NCBI RefSeq assembly: GCF_004214815.1
Contig: NZ_CP035926.1
Location: 1-64,000 of the forward strand
Source of the DNA: Aliarcobacter thereius LMG 24486
GTDB lineage: Bacteria; Campylobacterota; Campylobacteria; Campylobacterales; Arcobacteraceae
Length of the DNA stretch: 64,000 bases
Reading direction: 5' to 3'
How positions within the stretch are numbered: the stretch's first letter is position 1; every line of letters begins with the position of its first letter. Below are positions 7,877-20,368 of the stretch, one piece after another. Below the pieces are notes generated by a model. It saw only the letters and a list, made by a program, of their open reading frames with translations, made no database searches and was not told the DNA's origin. Made by a program: the position numbers and the translations under genes.

Positions 7877-8069
7877 ATAAAACCCTTTTTGTACAGATAA
7901 AACTATCTTTTGTCCATCTTCTATAAAGGCAATTGTAACAAGATTTTATATCTAAAGATGTTATGCACTCTTCTTCATCAACATCTTGTTTAAACTCTTT
8001 ACAAACAGCCTTTATAGCTTCTTTAAAACTTTTTTTACCAAATAAAAATATATTTTTATTATCAAACAT
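7866..8069 (-). CDS. Small Cys-rich protein (putative metal-binding)
   Basis: 67 residues with five Cys: two in the middle (C23 and C35) and a C-terminal set, CYNC at 45-48 and C59, spaced like a small zinc or iron-sulfur knuckle. It is basic at the C-terminus and has no signal peptide. The start ATG overlaps the stop of the TiaS-like gene (TAATG), which suggests translational coupling and perhaps a physical partnership. TiaS itself carries a zinc ribbon that the neighbouring protein lacks, so this could supply that part in trans; that is speculation. Confidence 0.65.
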   Translation of the reverse strand: MFDNKNIFLFGKKSFKEAIKAVCKEFKQDVDEEECITSLDIKSCYNCLYRRWTKDSFICTKRVLFDK

Positions 8070-8803
8070 TAGTATATTGCCAACTCTTCTTTATTTAATG
8101 GAAGATAAAACTCATTTGAATCTTTTATTAGAAGTGTTTTTTTATTGTTTTTTAGTATCCATTTTAAACTAGAATCATCAAAAAATATTTCTTTTGATAA
8201 ATCTAATTTTTGATTATTAGGAAGTTTTATATCATCAATTATCTTATCTTCTAAAAGCTCTTTTGCATTTAATTTTTGAGCTTTTAATTTTACTTTTCCT
8301 CTTAATCTTCCATCATTTCCACTAAGTCTTAAAGCAATACCAGCCAAAGCTCCTATTATTCCATTTCCCTCATTTTTTATCTCTTTTAAAAATATATTTT
8401 GCTCTTTTGCAAGATTATATGCAATTTTTTTATTTAAAACTTTATTCTTTGCATCAAAACCATAATTTATTAGTTGTTTAATATCTTTTATATCTTTTTC
8501 GAAAACCATAGCAACTCCACCACTTGATGATGGAGCACTTATATTTGAAACATAATTTAAAATATATTTTTTTATATCTTCAAACTCTTTTAAAAATAAA
8601 TCACATGTAAAACACATTGAACTATTGTGAGAAGTATAAGGTATATCTTCATGTAAAAATAGTTGATGTCTTGTTATAGCACTTGTATTTGAGTATTTTT
8701 CTCTTATATATTTTGCAATATTTTCACAAATTTCTCCAGTTGAGATAAAATATCCTATCTCATCTGTATCATCAATTGCTATAAATGTTTTAAATTTTTC
8801 CAT
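8069..8803 (-). CDS. TiaS-like (tRNA-Ile2 agmatinylcytidine synthetase family) domain protein
   Basis: 244 residues. The N-terminus carries the AIDDTD motif at 9-14, followed by a TG and a region with HEDIPYTSHN, and the second half has NEGNGIIGALAGIALRL near 141. Both match archaeal TiaS, whose kinase-like domain begins with IDDTD and contains a GxIGALA segment. The zinc ribbon and OB-fold of full TiaS are absent. Bacteria use TilS and lysidine for tRNA-Ile2, so the substrate here is probably different. It sits 8 bp after a TonB receptor and before a Cys-rich protein. The call rests on motif recall, not on a search. Confidence 0.65.
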   Translation of the reverse strand: MEKFKTFIAIDDTDEIGYFISTGEICENIAKYIREKYSNTSAITRHQLFLHEDIPYTSHNSSMCFTCDLFLKEFEDIKKYILNYVSNISAPSSSGGVAMVFEKDIKDIKQLINYGFDAKNKVLNKKIAYNLAKEQNIFLKEIKNEGNGIIGALAGIALRLSGNDGRLRGKVKLKAQKLNAKELLEDKIIDDIKLPNNQKLDLSKEIFFDDSSLKWILKNNKKTLLIKDSNEFYLPLNKEELAIY

Positions 8804-8811
8804 TTTTTTGC

Positions 8812-10971
8812 CTAAAATTTATATTCTAAAGATGCAAAATACTCTCTTCCTGCCATAGGATAAGCCATATCATATCTAATTAATTTATCACCAATATTTT
8901 TAACACCAATTTGTGCACTTAAATTTTTATTTGCTTTGTAAATAGCTTTTATATCAAATGTTGTTGTAGTTGGATTTTCTACATATGATTTATCCATTTT
9001 ATTTTCATAAGCACCTTTTCTAAACTTCATATTTCCATATATAGAAAAACCTGCACCAATCTCTTTTTGTGCAAAGAAAAATATTTGATGCTTTGGAACA
9101 TCTACAATTTTATTATTATTGTTGCTTCTATTTTTTATAGAGATAAATGTATAGTTTGTACCAATTTTAAAATCATCATTTGCATACTCTAAATCTAATT
9201 CTATACCTCTATGGTCAAAACTACCAATATTTTGGTTTTGTTTTAAGTTTTTATTTGAATTATAAGTAACATTTTGAATTGCATCATCAACTCTTGTAAA
9301 AAAACCTGCTAAAGCAAAATTTAAACCATTGTAATATCTTTGATAAGATAGTTCATAGTGGATAGCTTCTTCACTTTTTAAATCTGGATTTGGAACTTTT
9401 TCTCCACCAGAACCGTTTCCACCACCAGAACCGTTTCCACCACCAGAACCGTTTCCACCACCAGAACCGTTTCCACCACCAGAACCGTTTCCACCACCAG
9501 AACCGTTTCCACCACCAGAACCGTTTCCACCACCAGAACCGTTTCCACCACCAGAACCGTTTCCACCACCAGAACCATCCCCCCCTGGACCTCTAGAGTA
9601 TCTATCTTTCATAGATGGCATATAAGTTTTTTTTGAAACACTTACTCTTAATTTTGAATCATCATCAATACTATATATTAAAGCAGCTTGTGGAGAAAAA
9701 GAGTCATTTTCTTCTAATTTCATCATATTTAAATATTTTGTTTCAGTATCATAAAGCTTATCAGCTTTTTTCATATCATAACTCAAACCAGCCAATAATT
9801 CTAATTTTGGAGTAATATTATATATATTTTCTACTCCTAAAGAAATTGTATGATCTTCATAATTTTCACTTAAAGTTTTTTTATTATTTGTTTTTCCTAT
9901 ATCATAAGTTTTGTGAGAATCTTTTTTGTAGTTTGTAGCTGTTTTAAAGAAATTATTATCATTTGCTAAACCATATTCTACTCTAGCACCATATGTATAA
10001 TCTTCATTTTCATTTTTAAATGTTTTCTTATTATTATCAAAAGAAGAGTAAGTATTATCTTTATATGAATTTAGATTGTTTTTACTACTATCATAATATG
10101 CTAGAGCTTTTACATAGCTATTATTAAAGTTTTTTTGCCCAACAATAGATATAGATTCTTTATCAACTTTTGGCCAATCCCAGTACTTTTCTTTAGCAAA
10201 ACTTGTATCAGTTACAGGAGCTTGTTGTTTTTCACCTTTTTGATTTGAGTAATTTATAGATATTTCACTATCATCATTTGCTACATAACCTACTTTTAAA
10301 GATATCTTTTTATCTTCATTTTCACTTCTTAATCTATCTCCTGAAGCTTGATGAGAATTTCCTTTAAAATCATCACTCATTCTGAAGTGATCTTGTTTTG
10401 AATAACTAGCTCCTACTTGAGTATAAAAACCATTTTTTTGCATTGTTCCTAAATTTAAACTCTCAATATGTCTAGCCATTTTCATATTTGAGTCAAAAAT
10501 CATTTCAGCTTTTATATTTCCTTCAAACTCTTTTTTTGGTTTTTTAGAAATAATATTAACAACTCCACCCATAGTATTTCCACCAAATACAACAGAAGAG
10601 TAAGCTTTAGATACATCAATTTGAGAAATATCCGTTGTTAAAAATCTTCCATAATCAAAGTTTCCATCATAAGGAACATAAATAGGAACTCCATCTATAA
10701 AAACACCTACTCTTTTTGAATTAAATCCTCTAATATGAATAGTTGATTCACCTCTTCCACCTTGAATATCTTTGCTAACTCCACTTATATTGTCTAAAGC
10801 ATCAGATATATCAATACTATTATCTCTTGAAATATCATCAGAAGTGATTGTCTTTTCAAATACATTTATATTTTGATTTTTTTTTGCTTCTACATTTACT
10901 TGACCTAAATTGTAACTTTGAGCTAATGAAGCTGAAGCTATTAGTGATAAACTTATTATACTTTTTTTCAT
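8812..10971 (-). CDS. TonB-dependent outer membrane receptor with Gly-Asn-Ser repeat insert
   Basis: A plug-and-barrel receptor of 719 residues from the start preferred here. The ORF opens further upstream, but MKKSIISLSLIASASLA is a signal peptide and its ATG at 10971 has AGGAAG 4 bases before it. The plug contains SDALDNISGV, IHIRGFNSKRVGVFIDGVP and NTMGGVVNIISKKP; the C-terminus ends in a barrel strand with terminal Phe. An 18-bp unit repeated nine times encodes GNGSGG repeats inside a barrel loop, before PNPDLKSEEAIHYE. It shares architecture with the receptor at 14759. The ligand is unknown; the operon suggests a molybdenum, tungsten or metallophore complex. Confidence 0.88.
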   Translation of the reverse strand: MKKSIISLSLIASASLAQSYNLGQVNVEAKKNQNINVFEKTITSDDISRDNSIDISDALDNISGVSKDIQGGRGESTIHIRGFNSKRVGVFIDGVPIYVPYDGNFDYGRFLTTDISQIDVSKAYSSVVFGGNTMGGVVNIISKKPKKEFEGNIKAEMIFDSNMKMARHIESLNLGTMQKNGFYTQVGASYSKQDHFRMSDDFKGNSHQASGDRLRSENEDKKISLKVGYVANDDSEISINYSNQKGEKQQAPVTDTSFAKEKYWDWPKVDKESISIVGQKNFNNSYVKALAYYDSSKNNLNSYKDNTYSSFDNNKKTFKNENEDYTYGARVEYGLANDNNFFKTATNYKKDSHKTYDIGKTNNKKTLSENYEDHTISLGVENIYNITPKLELLAGLSYDMKKADKLYDTETKYLNMMKLEENDSFSPQAALIYSIDDDSKLRVSVSKKTYMPSMKDRYSRGPGGDGSGGGNGSGGGNGSGGGNGSGGGNGSGGGNGSGGGNGSGGGNGSGGGNGSGGGNGSGGEKVPNPDLKSEEAIHYELSYQRYYNGLNFALAGFFTRVDDAIQNVTYNSNKNLKQNQNIGSFDHRGIELDLEYANDDFKIGTNYTFISIKNRSNNNNKIVDVPKHQIFFFAQKEIGAGFSIYGNMKFRKGAYENKMDKSYVENPTTTTFDIKAIYKANKNLSAQIGVKNIGDKLIRYDMAYPMAGREYFASLEYKF
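9404..9583. repeat. 18-bp tandem repeat, nine perfect copies plus one degenerate
   Basis: The unit CCACCAGAACCGTTTCCA occurs head to tail with no mismatch at 9404-9421, 9422-9439, and so on to 9548-9565; a degenerate tenth copy ends at 9583. On the coding (minus) strand each copy reads Gly-Asn-Gly-Ser-Gly-Gly. Because 18 is a multiple of three, copy-number change alters loop length and leaves the frame intact. Perfect identity implies recent expansion or ongoing slippage. The paralogous receptor has only a short RFGKQ loop at the same place. Confidence 0.97.
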
Positions 10972-10982
10972 TTTTCTTCCTA

Positions 10983-11753
10983 CTATAAAATTGGGATACA
11001 ATATTTGTATCCATTCTTTTTTGATATAATTTCTACATCTATGTTGTAAAGTATTTTTATGTTTTCTTGTGTAAGTTTTTCTTCAATATCCCCAAAATCC
11101 AGCACTTTCCCTTTTTCTAACATCATTACTTTATTTGAAGCATATAAAGCATGTTCTGGATAGTGAGTTGTTTTTATAAATGTATAGCCCTCCTTTGATA
11201 GTGTTTTTAAAAAATTTAATAGTTTTAATTGATTTCCATAATCAAGTCCAGTAACTGGTTCATCCATAAATATGATTTTTGCACTTTGTGTTAAAGCTCT
11301 TGCAATAAAAGCAAGTTGCCTTTCTCCACCACTTACTTGAGAATATATTTTCTCTTTTAGGTGTAAAATCCCTACTTTTTCTAGTGCTTTTATAGCAATA
11401 TCTCTATCTTTTGAAGAGTAGTTTGAAAATAGTCCAATATGTGGTAACCTTCCCATTAAAACGACATCAAAAATAGTATAATCAAAAGGAATCTGATGAG
11501 TTTGAGGAACATAAGAAATAAGTTTTGCTAACTCTTTATTTGAATACTCTTTTATACTCTTATCTAAAATTTTTACTTCACCTTTTGATTTGAATATTCC
11601 TAAAAGTATCTTTAATAAAGTAGTTTTTCCTGAACCGTTTTTCCCTAAAAGAGATAGAATATCTCCTTGATTTAATTCAAAATTTATATCATCTAAAACT
11701 TGATTATTTTTATATGAAAAAGATATATTTTTTGCTTCTATTAATTTCATCAA
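10983..11753 (-). CDS. FecE/BtuD-type ABC importer ATPase
   Basis: 256 residues. Walker A is GKNGSGKTT near 37-45, a Q-loop follows, the ABC signature is VSGGERQ near 139, and Walker B IIFMDEPVTGLD near 160 leads to the switch His in TTHYPEHA. This is the COG1120 group that powers iron-siderophore, B12 and molybdate (MolC) importers. It overlaps the permease gene by 4 bp. Substrate cannot be read from the ATPase. The block's ModE-type operators point to molybdate or tungstate, as in the Haemophilus influenzae MolABC system, which is also built from FecBCD-type parts. Confidence 0.9.
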   Translation of the reverse strand: MMKLIEAKNISFSYKNNQVLDDINFELNQGDILSLLGKNGSGKTTLLKILLGIFKSKGEVKILDKSIKEYSNKELAKLISYVPQTHQIPFDYTIFDVVLMGRLPHIGLFSNYSSKDRDIAIKALEKVGILHLKEKIYSQVSGGERQLAFIARALTQSAKIIFMDEPVTGLDYGNQLKLLNFLKTLSKEGYTFIKTTHYPEHALYASNKVMMLEKGKVLDFGDIEEKLTQENIKILYNIDVEIISKKNGYKYCIPIL

Positions 11754-12760
11754 AAACCTTTTTTTGCATTTTTTAAAACAAAGATAAAAATAGGAATTCC
11801 TATAATTGCTGTAACAATTCCAATAGGTATTTCAAAGCTAAAAATTAGTTTAGATGTATTATCAACAATAAGTAAAAATATTGCACCAATAAGAGCACTC
11901 ATTGGTAAGATTACTTTATTATCAGCTCCAAAAATAAGCCTTGTAATATGAGGAATAATTAATCCAATCCAACCAATAATTCCTGCTAAAATAACACTTA
12001 ATGCACTTATTAAAGTGGCTACTATTATTATGATTAGTTTTATAAGTTTTGTATTTACTCCAAGAGCTTTTGCCTCTTCATCTCCAAGACTTAAAGCATT
12101 TAAATATTTTGAAAAAAAGATTAAAATCAAAATTCCACCAAGCATAGGAATAGTTAAATTCCAAACAATAGAACTTGTGCTAAAAGATAAGCTTCCCATG
12201 AGCCAATATGTAATTGCTGGTAAAACATCATTTGTATCTGCTCCATATTTTATAATAGAGAGCAAAGCTGAAAATAAAGAACTACTAATAATTCCACCAA
12301 GAACTAAAATAATCATATTTCTTGAACTAGAGTAGATAAAAGATATAGTAATAGCAAAAAAAACGGCAAGAATTCCAAAAATAAACGTAGAAAGATTTAT
12401 CAAAAACCAGTTTAAGCCTAAAATCATACCAAGAGCTGCACCAAAAGAAGCACCACTTAAAACTCCTAAAATTCCAGGAGAAACCAAAGGATTTACAAAC
12501 ATAGCTTGAAAAGAAGCTCCAGCAACTGCTAAAGAAGCTCCTATTAAAACAGCAGATATGATTCTAGGTAATCTAATATCAAAAATAATACTTTTCATAG
12601 TTTCATATTTCTCAATAGATATTGAAGAGTTAAATCCTAATAACTTTTGAATAAACATAAAATATTCATTTAAACTTATCTCATATTGACCTAAAAAAAG
12701 TGAAGCATTAATAATAATTATTAAAGCTAAAGCTAAAACAAAATAGCCACTTTTTATCAT
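11750..12760 (-). CDS. FecCD-type ABC importer permease
   Basis: 336 residues with about nine to ten membrane segments and the FecCD family landmarks: GASLAVAGASFQAMFVNPL at about 78-96, followed by SPGILGVLSGASFGAALG, and the later GWIGLIIPHITRLIFG near 265. It would form the homodimeric channel for the ATPase encoded next. It overlaps both neighbours by 4 bp. The family serves iron-siderophore, heme, cobalamin and, in MolB of H. influenzae, molybdate/tungstate. The operon context favours the last, by inference. Confidence 0.9.
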   Translation of the reverse strand: MIKSGYFVLALALIIIINASLFLGQYEISLNEYFMFIQKLLGFNSSISIEKYETMKSIIFDIRLPRIISAVLIGASLAVAGASFQAMFVNPLVSPGILGVLSGASFGAALGMILGLNWFLINLSTFIFGILAVFFAITISFIYSSSRNMIILVLGGIISSSLFSALLSIIKYGADTNDVLPAITYWLMGSLSFSTSSIVWNLTIPMLGGILILIFFSKYLNALSLGDEEAKALGVNTKLIKLIIIIVATLISALSVILAGIIGWIGLIIPHITRLIFGADNKVILPMSALIGAIFLLIVDNTSKLIFSFEIPIGIVTAIIGIPIFIFVLKNAKKGF

Positions 12761-13767
12761 AAATTTTTGCCTAAAATATCATCTATTTGCGAATTATCTA
12801 AATCTAAATCTAAAAATAGTTTATAAAACTTTTTTGATTCTTCATAAATATCCATCTCATATAAATCAGGATGAAGTATAGAAATAATATATCTTAAGCC
12901 CAATAATCTCATAAATGATGGTGGTCTATCAAACCAGCTAAAAGGACCTTTTGGTAAAAAATATACTTTTTTATTTTTTACAGCATCTATTAGTTGCCAT
13001 TTCTTATCATTAAAAATATTTTTATAAAACTCTTTTTCATAAACTAAGATTATTTCAGGATTGTAGTTTAAAACTTGTTCAAAATTTACAGCTTGTCTTC
13101 CAAAACTATTTGTGGCTTGGCATTTATGAACATTATCTCCACTTGCAAGATTTATTAATTCTGAGTGAATTGAAGTATTGCAATCAGTTAAAAGTCCATT
13201 ATTTCCTTCTGCATAATATACTTTTGGTTTTTTGCTTACTTTTTTTTCTATCTCTTTTGCTAAATTTAAACTCTCATTTCCATAGTTTTCTAACTCTTTT
13301 GCTCTTTTCTCTTTATCTACAAGTTTTCCTATATAATAAAAAGAAGAAACAAGTTCTTCAAGTGTGTTTGCTTTTAGATAAACCAAAGGTACATTTATAT
13401 TTCCTAAAGATGATTTGAGTTTCTTTTCTCCCATTTTTTTTGTAGAATCAGATAGTAAAATCACATCAGGTTTTGCTTGTAAAATCATCTCACTATTTGG
13501 CACTCTTCCTTGACCAAACCAACCACCAAGTACAGGTAAATCTACAATTCTTTTATCAATAAATTTTGCTTCATTTTCATTAAAAGGGAAGTTTAATCCA
13601 GCAATTTTATCTTTATCAATTGCATATAATGAATATAATAAAATAGGAGTTGCTGCATGAATTTTTTCTACTTTTTCAATATTTATCTTTGTTCCTAGCA
13701 TATCTTCATAAATTTTTGCATTTAAAAAAATTACAATAGAAGCTATTAAAAAAACTGTTCTAAACAT
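12757..13767 (-). CDS. FecB/BtuF/MolA-type periplasmic substrate-binding protein
   Basis: 336 residues with a signal peptide (about 1-17) and the two-lobed class III binding protein pattern: KIAGLNFPF and PVLGGWFGQGRVPNSEMILQAKPDVILLSD in the first lobe, then INLASGDNVHK, FEQVLNYNPEIILV and the segment FSWFDRPPSFMRLLGL near 286. It would deliver ligand to the FecCD-type permease. The start overlaps the preceding oxidoreductase gene by 8 bp. It is not a siderophore-binding protein by any motif I can see. A molybdate/tungstate MolA-like role is inferred from its place in the mod block. Confidence 0.85.
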   Translation of the reverse strand: MFRTVFLIASIVIFLNAKIYEDMLGTKINIEKVEKIHAATPILLYSLYAIDKDKIAGLNFPFNENEAKFIDKRIVDLPVLGGWFGQGRVPNSEMILQAKPDVILLSDSTKKMGEKKLKSSLGNINVPLVYLKANTLEELVSSFYYIGKLVDKEKRAKELENYGNESLNLAKEIEKKVSKKPKVYYAEGNNGLLTDCNTSIHSELINLASGDNVHKCQATNSFGRQAVNFEQVLNYNPEIILVYEKEFYKNIFNDKKWQLIDAVKNKKVYFLPKGPFSWFDRPPSFMRLLGLRYIISILHPDLYEMDIYEESKKFYKLFLDLDLDNSQIDDILGKNL

Positions 13768-14758
13768 ATGGTTTTACCTCATTTATATATAAATCTAATA
13801 CCTCTTTTGCTCTTTTTTGTGAGCTTACAAGAGGTTTTAATAAAAGTGCTTCAATATTAAATTCACTTTTCAACTCTTTTATCTGTTCCACACACTCTTT
13901 TGGTGTTCCATAAATTGCATTTTGCAAAATCCTATTTTTGTCAAACAAAGTTTCTCTTATTTGTAAATACTCTTTTGTAAGAAGTTTCACTAAAGTAGGA
14001 TTTGTATCTTTTGATAGAAGCATAGATTTTAAAAATATTTCAGCACTTTTTTTTGTCTCTTCTTCAATCTCTTTTTGATTAAAACCAATATTTATACCTC
14101 TTGCAACTCTAAAAGATAAACTCTTTTTTGGATTAAAACTATCAAAGTTTTTAAAAATATCTCTTATTTTCTCTTTACTTAAAGCTAAGCTTCCTATTAA
14201 AGAGAAATCTTCTTTTGCACATTTTTCTATGGCTTCAAGAGATTCAGAAGCTATGAAAGTAGTCATTGGTTTTTTTATTTTTGGTCTTATAGATATATCT
14301 TCACAAGAGAAAAACTTGCCACTAAAAGTTACTCTCTCTTCTAAAAGTAATCTATGAATAAGTTCATTTGCCTCAAACATAAGCTCTCTATTTGTTATTC
14401 CATCTGTTTTAAAAGTTTTATCATAAATAGCAAATGCACCTTTTGCAATACCATATAAAAATCTATCTTCATCATAGGATTTGATTGTTGCAATATCTTC
14501 AGCTAGTTTTATAGGATTATAATATGGAAGAAGTATTCCAGCTGTTCCTATTTTTATCTTGTTTGTTTTTCCTAAAAGATAGTTTGCAACACTAAGTGGA
14601 GATGGGCTTACGCTAAAGTTGTTGAAGTGATGTTCTGTAAGCCATGCTTCATCAAATCCTAGCTTTTCTGCATAACAAACCAGTTCTATCTGGTCTGTTA
14701 TAGCTTTTTCGTAATCATCTTCCCAATTTTCAAAAAGAGAAAAAATCGCACTTTTCAT
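13760..14758 (-). CDS. LLM-class (luciferase-like) flavin-dependent oxidoreductase
   Basis: 332 residues of the bacterial luciferase-like TIM-barrel family: FDEAWLTEHHF at about 35-45, then IGTAGILLPYYNPIKLAEDIATI near 72 and ERFSGKFF-type features later. Members are two-component monooxygenases or reductases that use FMNH2 or F420. The substrate is unknown. It lies between a TonB receptor (0 bp away) and the binding protein (8-bp overlap), so it is a fixed member of this uptake block. Oxidative or reductive release of the metal from an imported ligand would fit but is speculation. Confidence 0.82.
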   Translation of the reverse strand: MKSAIFSLFENWEDDYEKAITDQIELVCYAEKLGFDEAWLTEHHFNNFSVSPSPLSVANYLLGKTNKIKIGTAGILLPYYNPIKLAEDIATIKSYDEDRFLYGIAKGAFAIYDKTFKTDGITNRELMFEANELIHRLLLEERVTFSGKFFSCEDISIRPKIKKPMTTFIASESLEAIEKCAKEDFSLIGSLALSKEKIRDIFKNFDSFNPKKSLSFRVARGINIGFNQKEIEEETKKSAEIFLKSMLLSKDTNPTLVKLLTKEYLQIRETLFDKNRILQNAIYGTPKECVEQIKELKSEFNIEALLLKPLVSSQKRAKEVLDLYINEVKPYV

Positions 14759-16759
14759 TTAAAACTTATAAGTAATATTTGAGTAAACAACTCTTCCAGC
14801 TTCTGGGTAACCATAACTATAAGAATAGTTTTTATCAAAAATATTTGATGCACCAATATCAAAAGTTAAACCTTTTTTAATCTCATAAGCAAGTTTTGCA
14901 TTCCAAATAGCTGCACTACTTACATCTTTTTCTTTATTTTTTGAATGAGTGTGTCTGCTTGAAGAGAATTGCATATTTATATTTGTCATTAAACCTTTGA
15001 TTGGTCTATATGTTGCACTTAGAGCAATTTTATGTTTTGGAGCATCTGTGATTAGATCTTTTTTACCTGTATCTTTATTTATCTCTTCATTTTTAGTTAA
15101 AAGTCTTGTATAGCTTGCATCAAAATCAAGATTATTATCAAATGCATAGAAATACTCTAGCTCATATCCCATATGTTTAACTTTTCCAAGGTTGTAGTTT
15201 TTACTTATTTGATTATTCTTTGGTGCACTAGGGTTAGTTATTTCAGATTGTATATAATCTTTTACATCAGAGTAAAATAGTACTGCTTTTATACCCTGAT
15301 TTTCAAATAGTTTACTAGCACCTATTTCATAGTTGATTGTTTTTTCAGGTTCTAATTCTGGATTTGGAATTTGTTTACCAAATCTATAAGAGTATTTCTC
15401 TTTTAAACTTGCAAATCTTGTTTTTTTTGCAACTCCTGCATAAGTAGAAAAACTATCATCTATATCATACTCAACTTTAATCATAGGATTAAAAGAGTCA
15501 GAACTTGCATGTTCAAACTCTTTTCCATAAGTTGCATCTGGATTTTTGTTATTTGCTTCTTTTACTTCATCTTTATCCCAGCTTGCACCTGCAATAATTC
15601 TAAAGTCATCTGTTACTCTAAATGTATTTTCTAAGCCAATAGAAAAATAGTTCATTTTCTTTCTATAAACTTTTCCATCTTTTTCATTGTCTTTTTGAAT
15701 ATCTTGTTTCGCATGTAAGGCTAGTTTTAAACTATTTCTTTGTGTATCATATTGACCAAGTTCTAGTGAAATTCCTTTTGTGCTTGCATCATAAGGAGTT
15801 GGAGTCAGATGTAATTCAGAAAAAGAGATATCTTTATAGAAATTCATACTATCTTCATATTTATCATAGAAGATTCTAGATTTTATATATCCTAAATCAA
15901 AGTTTGTATTTGATAAGAAGTAAAAACTCTCTTTATTTGAATAATCCCACTGTCTATAAGGACCACCTTTTTTAGGATCTGTCATTGCACTATCACCATT
16001 ATAAACATCTGTTGGCATACCTTTATCTGTTTTCTGATTTATATAGTTAAATGCATATTCATCAGTTTCATTTGGAGTAAAACCTACTTTTAGATTTATA
16101 TTTTGATCATTTTTATAAGAATTTACTCTTTTATTGTTATCTTGAATAGTAGTTTCTTTAAAATCACTTGACATTGGATAGTAATCTCTTTCCATAATAG
16201 AACCACTAGCTTGAACATAATATAAACCTTGATTTGTAGCAAGATTTAAGTAAGATTTTCTTCCTTTTCCATTAAAAACACCAGTTGAAAGAGTACCTTC
16301 TAGCTCTTTTGTTGGTCTTTTTGTAACTAAGTTAATAGCACCTGCAAAAGTATTAATACCTAAAAGTGGAGAGCTTAAACCTTTTGTTACTTGAATTTTA
16401 TCAAGATTAAAAGTCATATAGTTTGATAAATCTACATAACCCTCAACAGGAAGATTTATAGCAATACCATCAATAAACACAGGAGCATGTCTTCCACTAA
16501 AACCTCTTATAGAGATTGTTTGCTCTCCTCTTGCACCATAACCATAAGTGTTTAATCCACTAATTGTATTTAAAGCATCCAAAACACTATTTTTGTTTTG
16601 AAGTTCCATATCTTCAGCACTTATTTCATTGCTTTTGAATTTACTATCTGAATTTGTTTTTTCAAATATATCAATTTGTCCTAAATTTGTTGTTTCATTT
16701 GCAAGAAGTGTTCCTGCAAAAAGTGTTGTAGCTACAACAAAGCTCAATTTTCTAACCAT
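14759..16759 (-). CDS. TonB-dependent outer membrane receptor, putative ModE target
   Basis: 666 residues with a signal peptide (about 1-20), a plug domain (VLDALNTISGL, TISIRGFSGRHAPVFIDG, NTFAGAINLVTKRP) and a beta-barrel that ends in YSNITYKF with C-terminal Phe. It is a paralogue of the receptor at 8812 but lacks the repeat insert. AAGGAATAGG precedes the ATG. A minus-strand TATAAT at 16810-16805 and a ModE-like inverted repeat at 16769-16790 lie just upstream, so it may have its own molybdenum-controlled promoter besides readthrough from modC. Confidence 0.9.
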   Translation of the reverse strand: MVRKLSFVVATTLFAGTLLANETTNLGQIDIFEKTNSDSKFKSNEISAEDMELQNKNSVLDALNTISGLNTYGYGARGEQTISIRGFSGRHAPVFIDGIAINLPVEGYVDLSNYMTFNLDKIQVTKGLSSPLLGINTFAGAINLVTKRPTKELEGTLSTGVFNGKGRKSYLNLATNQGLYYVQASGSIMERDYYPMSSDFKETTIQDNNKRVNSYKNDQNINLKVGFTPNETDEYAFNYINQKTDKGMPTDVYNGDSAMTDPKKGGPYRQWDYSNKESFYFLSNTNFDLGYIKSRIFYDKYEDSMNFYKDISFSELHLTPTPYDASTKGISLELGQYDTQRNSLKLALHAKQDIQKDNEKDGKVYRKKMNYFSIGLENTFRVTDDFRIIAGASWDKDEVKEANNKNPDATYGKEFEHASSDSFNPMIKVEYDIDDSFSTYAGVAKKTRFASLKEKYSYRFGKQIPNPELEPEKTINYEIGASKLFENQGIKAVLFYSDVKDYIQSEITNPSAPKNNQISKNYNLGKVKHMGYELEYFYAFDNNLDFDASYTRLLTKNEEINKDTGKKDLITDAPKHKIALSATYRPIKGLMTNINMQFSSSRHTHSKNKEKDVSSAAIWNAKLAYEIKKGLTFDIGASNIFDKNYSYSYGYPEAGRVVYSNITYKF

Positions 16760-16768
16760 ACCTATTCC

Positions 16769-16790
16769 TTTATCTATTTTAGTATATAAC
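16769..16790 (-). promoter_or_regulatory. ModE-like operator and promoter before the TonB receptor
   Basis: Read on the minus strand this is GTTATATA-N6-TAGATAAA. The left half is identical to the site before modE, the spacing is the same, and the right half matches 6 of 8. A perfect TATAAT lies upstream at 16810-16805, so a transcript would start near 16797 and the operator would lie just after it and overlap the Shine-Dalgarno region. The layout mirrors the modE promoter. This is a sequence match only. Confidence 0.55.
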
Positions 16791-16805
16791 GACCTTGAAA
16801 AAAAA

Positions 16806-17660
16806 TTATACTCCTTTTAAATTTGGAGTAAATGCTTTTGTACTTACATTTACTCTTTGCCCTATTTTTAAACTTTCTGCTTCCTTTTGACTAATAACAA
16901 CTTCTACAATTTGTTGACCAATAGCAACAACAGCAATATTTATAATATCTACTTTCAAAATATCAAGAAGTTCACCTTCAAAACTAAACTTTTGGCTACC
17001 TTCTGTTTTTAATAAAATATCTTTTGCTAAACCATCATTTGCTATTTTTCCCTCTTTTAAAACAAGAACTCTAGAAGCAAGTTTATACATCTCACTTGGA
17101 TCATGGCTTACCATTATTGTTGTTGTCTTAAACTCTTTATGAAGTGCTAAAATTTCATCTTGAAGTTTTAATCTCATATTAGGATCAAGTGCTGAAAGTG
17201 GCTCATCCATAAGTAAAATTCTTGGTTTTTTCATCAAAGATCTACATAAACTCACTCTTTGCTTTTGTCCACCACTTAAAGAGCTTGGATATCTATTTTT
17301 TAACTCATATAAATCTGTAAGATTTAAAAGATATTTTGCAAGTTCTTTATCTTTTTTCACGAAAAGAAGATTTTCTATAACTGTTAAGTTTGGAAAAAGT
17401 GCATAATCTTGGAAAACAAAACCAATATCTCTTTTTTGAACTGGTTTTATAAACTTATCATCAAGCCAAATTTCATTGTCTACAATAATCTTTCCATTTG
17501 CATTTTCTAAACCTGCTAAAACTCTTAGAATTGTAGTTTTACCACTTCCACTAATTCCACTTAAAGCTACAAACTCTCCAGTTTTTATAGATAAATCTAT
17601 ATCTAAAAGCATTTTTCCTGTGCTTCCGTGAAGCTCTTTTTTTATATTTAAATCTATCAT
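16806..17660 (-). CDS. modC: Molybdate ABC transporter ATPase ModC
   Basis: ModC hydrolyses ATP for high-affinity molybdate or tungstate import. The 284 residues contain Walker A GISGSGKTT at about 36-44, FQDYALFPNLTV near 85, signature LSGGQKQRV near 129 and Walker B ILLMDEPLSALD near 149. The C-terminal portion (about 220-284) looks like a single Mop/TOBE domain with VVAIGQQIVEVVIS. It is shorter than E. coli ModC (352). The stop lies 46 bp before the TonB receptor, and the gene directly follows modB with no gap. Confidence 0.93.
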   Translation of the reverse strand: MIDLNIKKELHGSTGKMLLDIDLSIKTGEFVALSGISGSGKTTILRVLAGLENANGKIIVDNEIWLDDKFIKPVQKRDIGFVFQDYALFPNLTVIENLLFVKKDKELAKYLLNLTDLYELKNRYPSSLSGGQKQRVSLCRSLMKKPRILLMDEPLSALDPNMRLKLQDEILALHKEFKTTTIMVSHDPSEMYKLASRVLVLKEGKIANDGLAKDILLKTEGSQKFSFEGELLDILKVDIINIAVVAIGQQIVEVVISQKEAESLKIGQRVNVSTKAFTPNLKGV

Positions 17661-18353
17661 TTATATAACTCTATTTCTTTTTTGTTTACCATTAAAAAGG
17701 TAAACAGCAAGAAGTGTAATAAAACTCATAACAATCATAATTAAGCTATAAATATGAGCATTTTTATAATCAAGTATTTCAACAAACTCATAAATAGCAA
17801 TAGCAGCAACTCTTGTTTCGTTTGGAATACTTCCACCAATCATTAAAACAACTCCAAACTCTCCAACAGTATGAGCAAAAGTTATGATTAGAGCTGTAAG
17901 AAGTGATGGTTTGATATTTGGTAAAGCTATTAGTAAAACAGTTTTAAATTTACTTTTTCCACTAATATAACTTGCTTCTATCATATTTTTATTTAGGCTT
18001 TCAAAACCACTTTGAAGTGGTTGAACCATAAAAGGAAGGCTATAAAGACAACTTGCAATTATTATTCCATTTAGATTAAAAACTAAACTAATACCAAAAT
18101 AGTTTTGAAAAAATTGTCCAATAGGAGAATTGTGAGATAATCCCCAAAGCAAATAAAATCCTAAAACAGTTGGAGGAACAACTAAAGGCATAGTGCAAAG
18201 TGCTTCAATAAATGGTTTCGATTTTGACTTTGTTTGTGATAAATACCAAGCAAGAGGCATACATAAAACAAACAAAATCAAAGTTGTAATTAGAGCTAAT
18301 TTAAAAGATAATGTAAAAGGTGCATAATCTACACTTAATAAATATTCAATCAT
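17661..18353 (-). CDS. modB: Molybdate ABC transporter permease ModB
   Basis: 230 residues with five to six membrane segments. MPLVVPPTVLGFYLLWGL near 55-72 and the EAA-type loop around EASYISGKSKFKTVLLIALPNIKPSLLTALIITFAHTVGEFG near 126-167 are typical of ModB/CysT permeases. It would form the channel with ModC and receive molybdate from ModA. The start overlaps the Mop-protein gene by 8 bp and the stop abuts modC. Confidence 0.93.
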   Translation of the reverse strand: MIEYLLSVDYAPFTLSFKLALITTLILFVLCMPLAWYLSQTKSKSKPFIEALCTMPLVVPPTVLGFYLLWGLSHNSPIGQFFQNYFGISLVFNLNGIIIASCLYSLPFMVQPLQSGFESLNKNMIEASYISGKSKFKTVLLIALPNIKPSLLTALIITFAHTVGEFGVVLMIGGSIPNETRVAAIAIYEFVEILDYKNAHIYSLIMIVMSFITLLAVYLFNGKQKRNRVI

Positions 18354-18738
18354 TTAAAATCCTATAAATTGATAAATCACTAGCTTTTATTAAAATATTT
18401 ACTTCATCATTCTCTTTTAAGTTTAATCTCTCTTTAGAATTTTTTGTAATTATACTTTCAAGCTTTGTACTGTTTATCTCTAAAATAATATTTGATAAAA
18501 GTTCTCCACTATTTATAGAGATAATTTTTGCAAGAGCTTGGTTTGATAAGCTAATATCTTCAATATGTTTTTTTGAAATAGATATATTTGTAGGTTTTAC
18601 AAGTAGCTCAACTTTTGAACCTACTTGTAAATTTTCAATTAAATCTAAACTCATCATCTTAAAAATATTATTATAAAAATCAAACTCAATAATATTTAAA
18701 CTATCACTAGAATGAATATTTTTTACTCTTGCAATCAT
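18346..18738 (-). CDS. TOBE/Mop molybdate-binding protein
   Basis: 130 residues with two TOBE/Mop-like halves (about 1-62 and 66-130). The second has the familiar pattern NQALAKIISINSGELLSNIILEI, ending in VNILIKASDLSIYR. Such proteins bind oxyanions as oligomers and store molybdate or help regulate it. It lies between modA (13 bp) and modB (8-bp overlap), a common place for a ModG-like protein. The first half is more diverged than the second. Confidence 0.82.
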   Translation of the reverse strand: MIARVKNIHSSDSLNIIEFDFYNNIFKMMSLDLIENLQVGSKVELLVKPTNISISKKHIEDISLSNQALAKIISINSGELLSNIILEINSTKLESIITKNSKERLNLKENDEVNILIKASDLSIYRILND

Positions 18739-18751
18739 ATTTACTCTTTTA

Positions 18752-19498
18752 TTATTTTACTAAATATCCAAAATCAACAAATATCTTTTTTGCTTTAGGG
18801 CTTAGGATAAAATCATAAAAAGCTCTAGCTTCTTTGTTCTGTTTTGCTCTATTTAAAATAACAATTCCTTGGTCAATTGGAGTATATAATTTTGGGTCAA
18901 CACTTACCCAGTCAATATTCTCTTTGTATTGAGACATTTTTTCATCATATAAAGATGATTTTGCAATAAATCCTACTTCTGCAGCTGTTAAAGCATAAGT
19001 TACAGCTTGAGAGATTGATTCTGCATAGATTAGTTTTGATTCAATATCATCATAAACTTTTGCATTTTTAAATGCTTCAACAGATGCTGTTCCATATGGA
19101 GCAGTCTTTGGATTTGCAATTGCAACTTTTATAACTTTTTTATCTGTTACAATATTAATACCTTTTGAAAGGTCAAGTTTTTTTGAACTTAGCATTGCTA
19201 AACTACCTTGAGCATAAAGCACAGGTTCTGTTACAGTTAATTTTTTATTATATAAATTTTCAGGGAATTTCATATTTGCACTCATAAATATATCAAATGG
19301 AGCTCCATTTTCAATTTGTGCTGTAAATTTTCCACTACTTCCTAAAGTTACTTGAACTTTTGTATCTGGATTTGTTTTGTTAAATTCTGCAATTAAATCG
19401 TTGATTGCATAAGATACATTCGCTGCAACTGCTATATTTATTGTTCCTGCAAAAACACTTGAACATAAAAATGCAAATACTAAAACTATTTTTTTCAT
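18752..19498 (-). CDS. modA: Molybdate-binding periplasmic protein ModA
   Basis: 248 residues with a signal peptide (MKKIVLVFAFLCSSVFA). The mature part begins INIAVAANVSYAINDL, the ModA hallmark, with SSGKFTAQIENGAPFDIFMSAN near 54-75 and FIAKSSL near 180. It binds molybdate or tungstate in the periplasm and hands it to ModBC. A ribosome site AAGGAT lies before the ATG. It follows modE by 9 bp, so the transporter is probably co-transcribed with its regulator. Confidence 0.95.
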   Translation of the reverse strand: MKKIVLVFAFLCSSVFAGTINIAVAANVSYAINDLIAEFNKTNPDTKVQVTLGSSGKFTAQIENGAPFDIFMSANMKFPENLYNKKLTVTEPVLYAQGSLAMLSSKKLDLSKGINIVTDKKVIKVAIANPKTAPYGTASVEAFKNAKVYDDIESKLIYAESISQAVTYALTAAEVGFIAKSSLYDEKMSQYKENIDWVSVDPKLYTPIDQGIVILNRAKQNKEARAFYDFILSPKAKKIFVDFGYLVK

Positions 19499-19507
19499 AT
19501 TTTATCC

Positions 19508-20290
19508 TTATCTACCTATCATAATATCAGATGCTTTTATAATAGCATCAACTTCAAGACCAACTTCTAAACCTAAATTTTTTACAGAATTTGTAGTTAC
19601 AATAGTTACTATTTTATCTGTATTTCCAATATCTATAACAACTTCAGAGTTTACATCACTGCTATTTATAGCTTCAATTTTTCCTCTTAAGCAGTTTCTA
19701 GCACTAACTTTTAGACTAGTATCAGTTGAAATCAGAACATTGCTTGATTTGATTAAAGCAACAACTTCATCATTTTTTTCTAAATCAAGATTCTCAACAG
19801 ATGTAAGAGTAATAACACTTACAAGCTCTTTTCCACTTTTAAGTTTTAAAGTAAGTTCTGCATTTACTGCGCCTTTGTTTATATTTGAAACAACAGCAAT
19901 AATTTGGTTTCTAGCACTAATTTGCATTGATAATCTCCTAATTGTTTTTAGAGTTCCGCTATTTAGATCTGTAATTCTATGTAGGTTTTCCAAGAATTTC
20001 TTTTGTTCCTCTTTTAAAAGAAAATATGTATTTAAAAGATTCTCTCCATAAGAAGTTAGCTTTGTTCCACCACCACCAACACCACCAGTTTCTCTTATTA
20101 CTATTGGAGTATTTGATAAATTATTCATATCTTCAATAGCTTCCCAAGCTGCTTTATAGCTAAGTGGAACTTCTTTTGATGCTTTATTGATTGAACCTGT
20201 TTTTTTAATTGCATTTAAAAGAGCGATTCTTTTTTCAAGTAAAAAAGGTTTGTCAAAAAGTTCTAAAGTCAAGTTTGATGAAATTTGCAT
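19508..20290 (-). CDS. modE: Molybdate-responsive regulator ModE
   Basis: 260 residues: an N-terminal LysR-like winged helix (INKASKEVPLSYKAAWEAIEDMN near 37-59, then GGVGGGGTKLT near 73) and two C-terminal Mop/TOBE domains (about 124-186 and 195-258) that bind molybdate. In E. coli Mo-bound ModE represses modABC and activates Mo-enzyme genes. Here it is the first gene of the block, and a ModE-like palindrome lies 12-33 bases before its start codon, so autoregulation of the whole operon is likely. Confidence 0.94.
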   Translation of the reverse strand: MQISSNLTLELFDKPFLLEKRIALLNAIKKTGSINKASKEVPLSYKAAWEAIEDMNNLSNTPIVIRETGGVGGGGTKLTSYGENLLNTYFLLKEEQKKFLENLHRITDLNSGTLKTIRRLSMQISARNQIIAVVSNINKGAVNAELTLKLKSGKELVSVITLTSVENLDLEKNDEVVALIKSSNVLISTDTSLKVSARNCLRGKIEAINSSDVNSEVVIDIGNTDKIVTIVTTNSVKNLGLEVGLEVDAIIKASDIMIGR

Positions 20291-20301
20291 AAAAATCCTT
20301 T

Positions 20302-20339
20302 GTTATATACAGATTTACATAACGACACAAAATATTATC
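20302..20339 (-). promoter_or_regulatory. modE promoter with ModE operator
   Basis: The inverted repeat GTTATATA-N6-TACATAAC spans 20302-20323; seven of eight positions in each arm are symmetric, and it resembles the TATAT/ATATA operator known for E. coli ModE. A minus-strand -10 element, GATAAT, lies at 20339-20334, so transcription would start next to the operator and bound ModE would block it. AAGGAT before the ATG is the ribosome site. The same arm sequence recurs at 16769-16790. Confidence 0.65.
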
Positions 20340-20352
20340 TTTATGTAGCTTA

Positions 20353-20368
20353 AGTTATAATGATAACT
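20353..20368. promoter_or_regulatory. Second palindrome upstream of modE
   Basis: AGTTAT-AATG-ATAACT is a perfect 6-bp inverted repeat with a 4-bp spacer. It falls where the -35 region of the modE promoter would be, so it could be an operator for another regulator. It has a slight likeness to a Fur-type site (ATAATGATAA) but is not a good match. No binding protein can be named. Confidence 0.35.

Follow-up and report, generated by a model that had tools for sequence, protein, structure and literature searches.

A candidate ModE operator before a TonB-dependent receptor gene points to molybdenum control of a MolABC-like transport block in Aliarcobacter

We propose that a 24-bp imperfect palindrome, CGTTATATA-N6-TAGATAAAG, at 16768-16791 on the minus strand of Aliarcobacter thereius is a ModE operator controlling a TonB-dependent receptor gene and the MolABC-like unit that follows it, with molybdenum-chelate uptake as the probable function; judged from the sequence evidence, we put the probability of this explanation as a whole at roughly 0.85. 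The window, i.e., the whole 64-kb stretch of DNA analyzed, holds the element (with its spacer, CGTTATATA-CTAAAA-TAGATAAAG) in the 46-bp gap between modC and the receptor gene, which reads ...GGAGTATAATTTTTTTTCAAGGTCGTTATATACTAAAATAGATAAAGGAATAGGTATG on the minus strand. The original prediction had described a 22-bp element, GTTATATA-N6-TAGATAAA, at 16769-16790; its letters, strand, and coordinates were all correct when read directly from the window, but the element is better delimited as the 24-bp palindrome, in which TATATA-type arms with flanking CG are separated by 6 bp. The left arm is complete, and the right arm matches at 7/9 positions, reading TAGATAAAG instead of TATATAACG and extending into the Shine-Dalgarno sequence AAGGA of the receptor gene (16766-16770).

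The genes upstream of the gap, all on the minus strand, form a molybdate regulation and uptake unit. The first, modE (19508-20290), encodes a molybdate-dependent regulator with a helix-turn-helix and two Mop/TOBE domains, which passes the TIGR00637 cut-off (100.5 versus 98.5 bits) and matches E. coli ModE (1o7l) at an E value of 2e-33. It is followed by modA for a molybdate-binding protein (18752-19498) and the permease gene modB (17661-18353), both named from gene order and orthologs, with a Mop/TOBE-domain protein (18346-18738) encoded between them, and by the ATPase gene modC (16806-17660; stop codon 16806-16808), these last two assigned by profile matches. Where a single ModE-like site had been predicted before modE, such a box does exist, but as one of a pair about 40 bp apart: a proximal box, CGTTATGTAAATCTGTATATAACA, at 20301-20324 (minus strand, 18.2 bits in the matrix scan described below) and a distal box, CATTATAACTTAAGCTACATAAAG, at 20339-20362 (minus strand, 15.7 bits). 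The tandem arrangement (20301-20362) is found in most of the genus, the distal copy often reading CATTATATATTAAGNTATATAANG, and suggests cooperative or looped repression. The modE promoter and the receptor gap are alike in that the box reaches as far as the Shine-Dalgarno sequence, within a few bases of the start codon. Compared with the ModE operators of E. coli modABC and Geobacter sulfurreducens mod (PMC545781, PMC2700814), for which the published E. coli consensus is ATCGNTATATA-N6-TATATANCGAT, the arms, the 6-bp spacing, the regulator family, and the molybdate uptake genes behind the operator are the same, whereas Aliarcobacter has an extra box before the TonB receptor gene, whose degenerate right arm shares letters with the Shine-Dalgarno sequence.

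Could so AT-rich an element be a look-alike arisen by chance, with its mod neighborhood due merely to insertion of a receptor gene there? Simple matching leaves room for such a view: the loose 22-mer (up to 3 mismatches) occurs 10 times in the window against 6.7 expected and is not rare in AT-rich DNA, and the 15/20 matches of the receptor element to the E. coli consensus are equaled at unrelated places. Plain consensus counting, whether with the loose 22-mer or the E. coli 28-mer, was dropped as evidence since it failed to separate the site from background, and the element is thus not significant by eye alone. Because loose matching was not decisive, we trained a symmetric weight matrix on 49 boxes that precede 26 modE genes in 25 other Aliarcobacter genomes. 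Neither the source genome nor its nearest relative (G015) contributed to it, and all receptor gaps were excluded; the training boxes were the best matches to an assumed consensus, CGTTATATA-N6-TATATAACG, so the matrix carries a mild circularity and is not fully blind. Scored in this way, as the original prediction had suggested, the receptor box ranked first in the window at 21.7 bits, ahead of the two modE boxes of the same genome and within the range of the training sites (14 to 27 bits, median 22.7). The next unrelated place reached 8.1 bits, and apart from the three named boxes nothing in the 64-kb window exceeded 8.2 bits. For this score the exact tail under an order-1 model gives p = 2e-9 per position, equivalent to 0.004 expected occurrences in a genome and 1e-7 over the 46-bp gap. 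The matrix itself was scanned across the window, and genome-wide ranking came from pattern searches followed by scoring of the matches.

The same gap in relatives provides a second line of evidence. Within the genus Aliarcobacter (including A. vitoriensis, locus L123), seven genomes, the source among them, carry a receptor behind modC, and all seven have a box there, bearing out the expectation that the motif would be conserved among close relatives. These boxes score 13.1 to 27.6 bits with each genome's own modE boxes excluded from the matrix; the weakest, in G017, has a weak right arm. The left arm CGTTATATA is invariant in all seven gaps, across a receptor identity of 50-77%, and an alignment of the five nearest shows all nine left-arm columns invariant and most flanking columns variable. 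None of the 17 scored genus genomes in which modC lacks a receptor behind it has a box at that position (best 2.9 bits); the association (7/7 versus 0/17) gives a Fisher p of 2.9e-6, which ignores kinship and is overstated because the genomes are related. The closest genome, G015, with a 97% identical ModE, has neither receptor nor box after modC. Together with the matrix score, persistence of the box across such diverged receptors, its absence behind modC in genomes that lack the receptor there, and a reversed control pattern found in none of 104 family genomes leave the chance explanation very improbable.

Across the family, the exact 24-mer pattern CGTTATATANNNNNNTANATAANG occurs in 33 of the 104 genomes and co-occurs with the regulator: where a full-length ModE is encoded, 32 of 78 genomes have it, versus 1 of 26 where it is not (p = 2e-4), and the sole exception, G018, is a 54% complete genome. 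Two complete genus genomes that lack a full-length ModE have no match to the pattern even at one mismatch. Each of the 19 family loci checked has modE, modA, a molA-like gene, or a TonB receptor gene directly behind the box. The box precedes TonB receptor genes at the unlinked molABC-like loci of G010 and G021, G010 having no receptor and, on scoring, no box behind modC, as well as receptors in other genera (G045, G056, G060, and G084), where the G060 protein was counted as a receptor because its sequence is plug-like and resembles the L092 receptor, not by a profile search of its own. Some receptor relatives from other genera (L221 and L227) lacked a good box within 300 bp. Among the boxes found in the source genome, the next in rank (19.9 bits) lies before an operon of an uncharacterized protein and ModD, the latter above the TIGR01334 cut-off, and elsewhere the box precedes a moved modA (L084) and a gene for a molybdopterin-domain, sulfite-dehydrogenase-like oxidoreductase (L085). 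The gene content behind the boxes is what a ModE regulon would be expected to hold. Further afield, receptor homologs in Sulfuricurvum, Sulfurovaceae, Sulfurimonadaceae, and Sulfurospirillaceae have the same neighbors, often with modABC and box-like sites. The uncharacterized protein of the boxed operon belongs to a group of 168-187 aa (MTxEKIMTxLFEFSxPTYYKW; L102 1553-2059, L086-L089) encoded at the head of units that carry a ModE box, modD following in the source genome, G002, and G027; it had no Pfam or NCBIfam match.

The genes behind the receptor box lie on one strand (minus), overlapping or a few bases apart, from the receptor (14759-16759; plug and barrel domains, with orthologs) through a luciferase-like (LLM class) flavin monooxygenase (13760-14758), found beside the receptor in most relatives, a class III substrate-binding protein with a predicted MolA-like fold (12757-13767), a FecCD-family permease (11750-12760), an ATPase (10983-11753), and a second TonB-dependent receptor (8812-10962), for which the window scan showed no separate ModE box, to a 244-aa protein (8069-8803) that is a recurrent neighbor of mol and receptor genes. 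Because no place besides the three named boxes rises above 8.2 bits, one box would serve the whole receptor block. Among solved structures, the closest relative of the permease is HI1471 (MolB; E = 2.6e-63), with BtuCD, Fhu, and Hmu relatives at 7e-50 or weaker, and that of the ATPase is HI1470 (MolC; E = 1.9e-45), only 2nq2 reaching 1e-40 or better. The model of the binding protein (pLDDT 87) best matches the fold of 4pag from Sulfurospirillum; MolA (3psa; Z 26.5, E 6e-10) comes fourth, with 4pag, 4hn9, and 4ovk closer. The second receptor carries nine GGGNGS repeats (54 residues; 9409-9570, minus strand) within its barrel domain. The 244-aa protein had no Pfam match, and its likeness to methanogenesis marker 11 and TiaS was weak and far below the cut-offs; relatives of it (L132-L134, L225-L227) stand beside mol or TonB receptor genes in several Campylobacterota, and it is possibly a new molybdenum-linked family.

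Where transcription of the block would begin is less clear-cut. The original prediction pointed to a TATAAT in the 46-bp gap, and the hexamer exists at 16805-16810 (minus strand), where with TTTACT at 16827-16832 and a spacer of 16 it makes a possible -10 with 10/12 matches. It overlaps the modC stop codon, however, so that its last base alone lies in the gap. Only the nearest relatives share it; it is not conserved in G017, G029, and G021, which weakens it as a fixed promoter. A -10 at this place would set the operator just downstream of the start, though the role of the TATAAT is uncertain. An alternative -10, TATACT, predicted from sequence at 16780-16785 (minus strand) inside the operator, would set the operator over the -10; a TATA-type hexamer stands at this place in all receptor boxes, kept by the operator itself. 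No terminator-like site was found around the modC-receptor gap, and a stem at the modC 3' end (GAGTAAATG/CATTTACTC), considered as a terminator, is not kept in G027 or G017. Because no terminator was found, transcription from the modE promoter might also read through, and the gap would then have no promoter of its own, with bound ModE acting as a road-block to transcripts from upstream. The placement of all genes on one strand with gaps of at most 46 bp, the lack of a terminator-like site around the gap, and the poor conservation of the TATAAT would all suit this arrangement. Against it, the modC-receptor gap widens to about 140-150 bp in G029 and G021 with the box still close to the start of the receptor gene, and receptor genes at unlinked loci have a box of their own; the box therefore belongs to the receptor gene and not to modC, and we regard a pure road-block as unlikely.

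Our preferred reading remains an operator that governs the receptor unit directly. We propose that when molybdenum is replete, a molybdate-loaded ModE dimer would bind the palindrome, which immediately precedes and partly overlaps the receptor gene's Shine-Dalgarno sequence, and block a second transcription unit comprising the receptor, the LLM monooxygenase, the MolABC-like transporter, the second receptor, and the 244-aa protein. When molybdenum is low, ModE would leave both modE boxes and the receptor box, and the modABC pump would come on together with an outer-membrane route into a MolBCA-type ABC importer, the receptor probably importing molybdenum (or tungsten) in a chelate. We infer ModE binding, the start site, the cargo, and the role of the monooxygenase from these arrangements. 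Repression by molybdate-loaded ModE is likely, since ModE bound at this place would block initiation or early elongation. ModE can activate some E. coli genes, and the box before the sulfite-dehydrogenase-like molybdoenzyme gene might hint at activation of the receptor unit as well; yet in the receptor gap, as before modE, the box sits at the translation start and either covers any -10 or lies downstream of it, a position that fits repression and makes activation improbable.

The boxes before receptors of unlinked molABC-like loci, and a permease and ATPase nearest HI1471 and HI1470, support the predicted tie between the TonB/FecBCD half of the block and molybdenum control. The cargo is a separate matter. 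ModE may bind while the receptor carries an iron-siderophore or another metal chelate, molybdenum control then serving a side purpose such as avoiding clashes between oxyanions and siderophores. By profile the receptor falls in siderophore- or heme-like families, the top solved relatives of the binding protein include ones called iron- or siderophore-binding, and, going by the title of a reference listed in PMC10669500, siderophore production in Azotobacter responds to molybdenum. Set against these likenesses, there is no Fur-like box in the gap (the best candidate there reached 11/18, a score met by 29% of random segments), and homologous receptors across Campylobacterota recur jointly with modABC, ModE boxes, and HI1470/HI1471-like ABC genes. 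We consider an iron-siderophore or other metal-chelate cargo of this kind unlikely, and molybdenum-chelate uptake under ModE control the better account.

Two known systems offer partial counterparts. For the permease and ATPase, the nearest solved structures are those of Haemophilus influenzae MolBCA (HI1470-1472; PMC7759655), and MolA is one of the four best fold matches for the modeled binding protein; in Aliarcobacter, by contrast, TonB receptors, an LLM monooxygenase, and a ModE box accompany the genes, and the importer is a candidate known from its genes. The VnfA1-dependent operons of Azotobacter vinelandii, as described in the excerpt of PMC9542535, likewise combine a TonB receptor with ABC components, and their expression follows molybdenum and vanadium supply; within that excerpt, control is by the activator VnfA1 and no ModE box is reported, whereas Aliarcobacter has the ModE box.

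The usual view is that molybdate enters through outer-membrane porins. Somewhat more speculatively, though we lean toward it, Campylobacterota may possess a dedicated ModE-controlled TonB route that would deliver molybdenum or tungsten chelates to a MolBCA-type importer, with the LLM monooxygenase and the 244-aa protein perhaps freeing the metal, as a molybdenum counterpart of siderophore uptake. If true, molybdenum would join iron, nickel, and B12 among the nutrients that some bacteria actively scavenge at their surface. The box would then be a sequence handle, and any TonB receptor behind a ModE box elsewhere a candidate molybdenum receptor. Literature searches, whose coverage largely excluded subscription journals, returned no paper on a ModE-controlled TonB receptor; the operator type is already known, and its occurrence ahead of a TonB receptor that is paired with a MolBCA-like importer appears to be a variant for which we found no paper.

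Two further box-like sequences were observed. A near-perfect palindrome, CTTTATATACATTAATACATAAAG, at G000:C1:726047-726070 (L099, L091; 19.1 bits, 0.04 expected per genome) stands a few bases upstream of a gene of 337 aa. This gene matches EF-hand weakly, and an ortholog was found in G030 only, with no box there. A near-box, CGTTATATTGGTTTATAAATAA, recurs in G010, G011, G023, and G024 (e.g., G010:C1:2157758).
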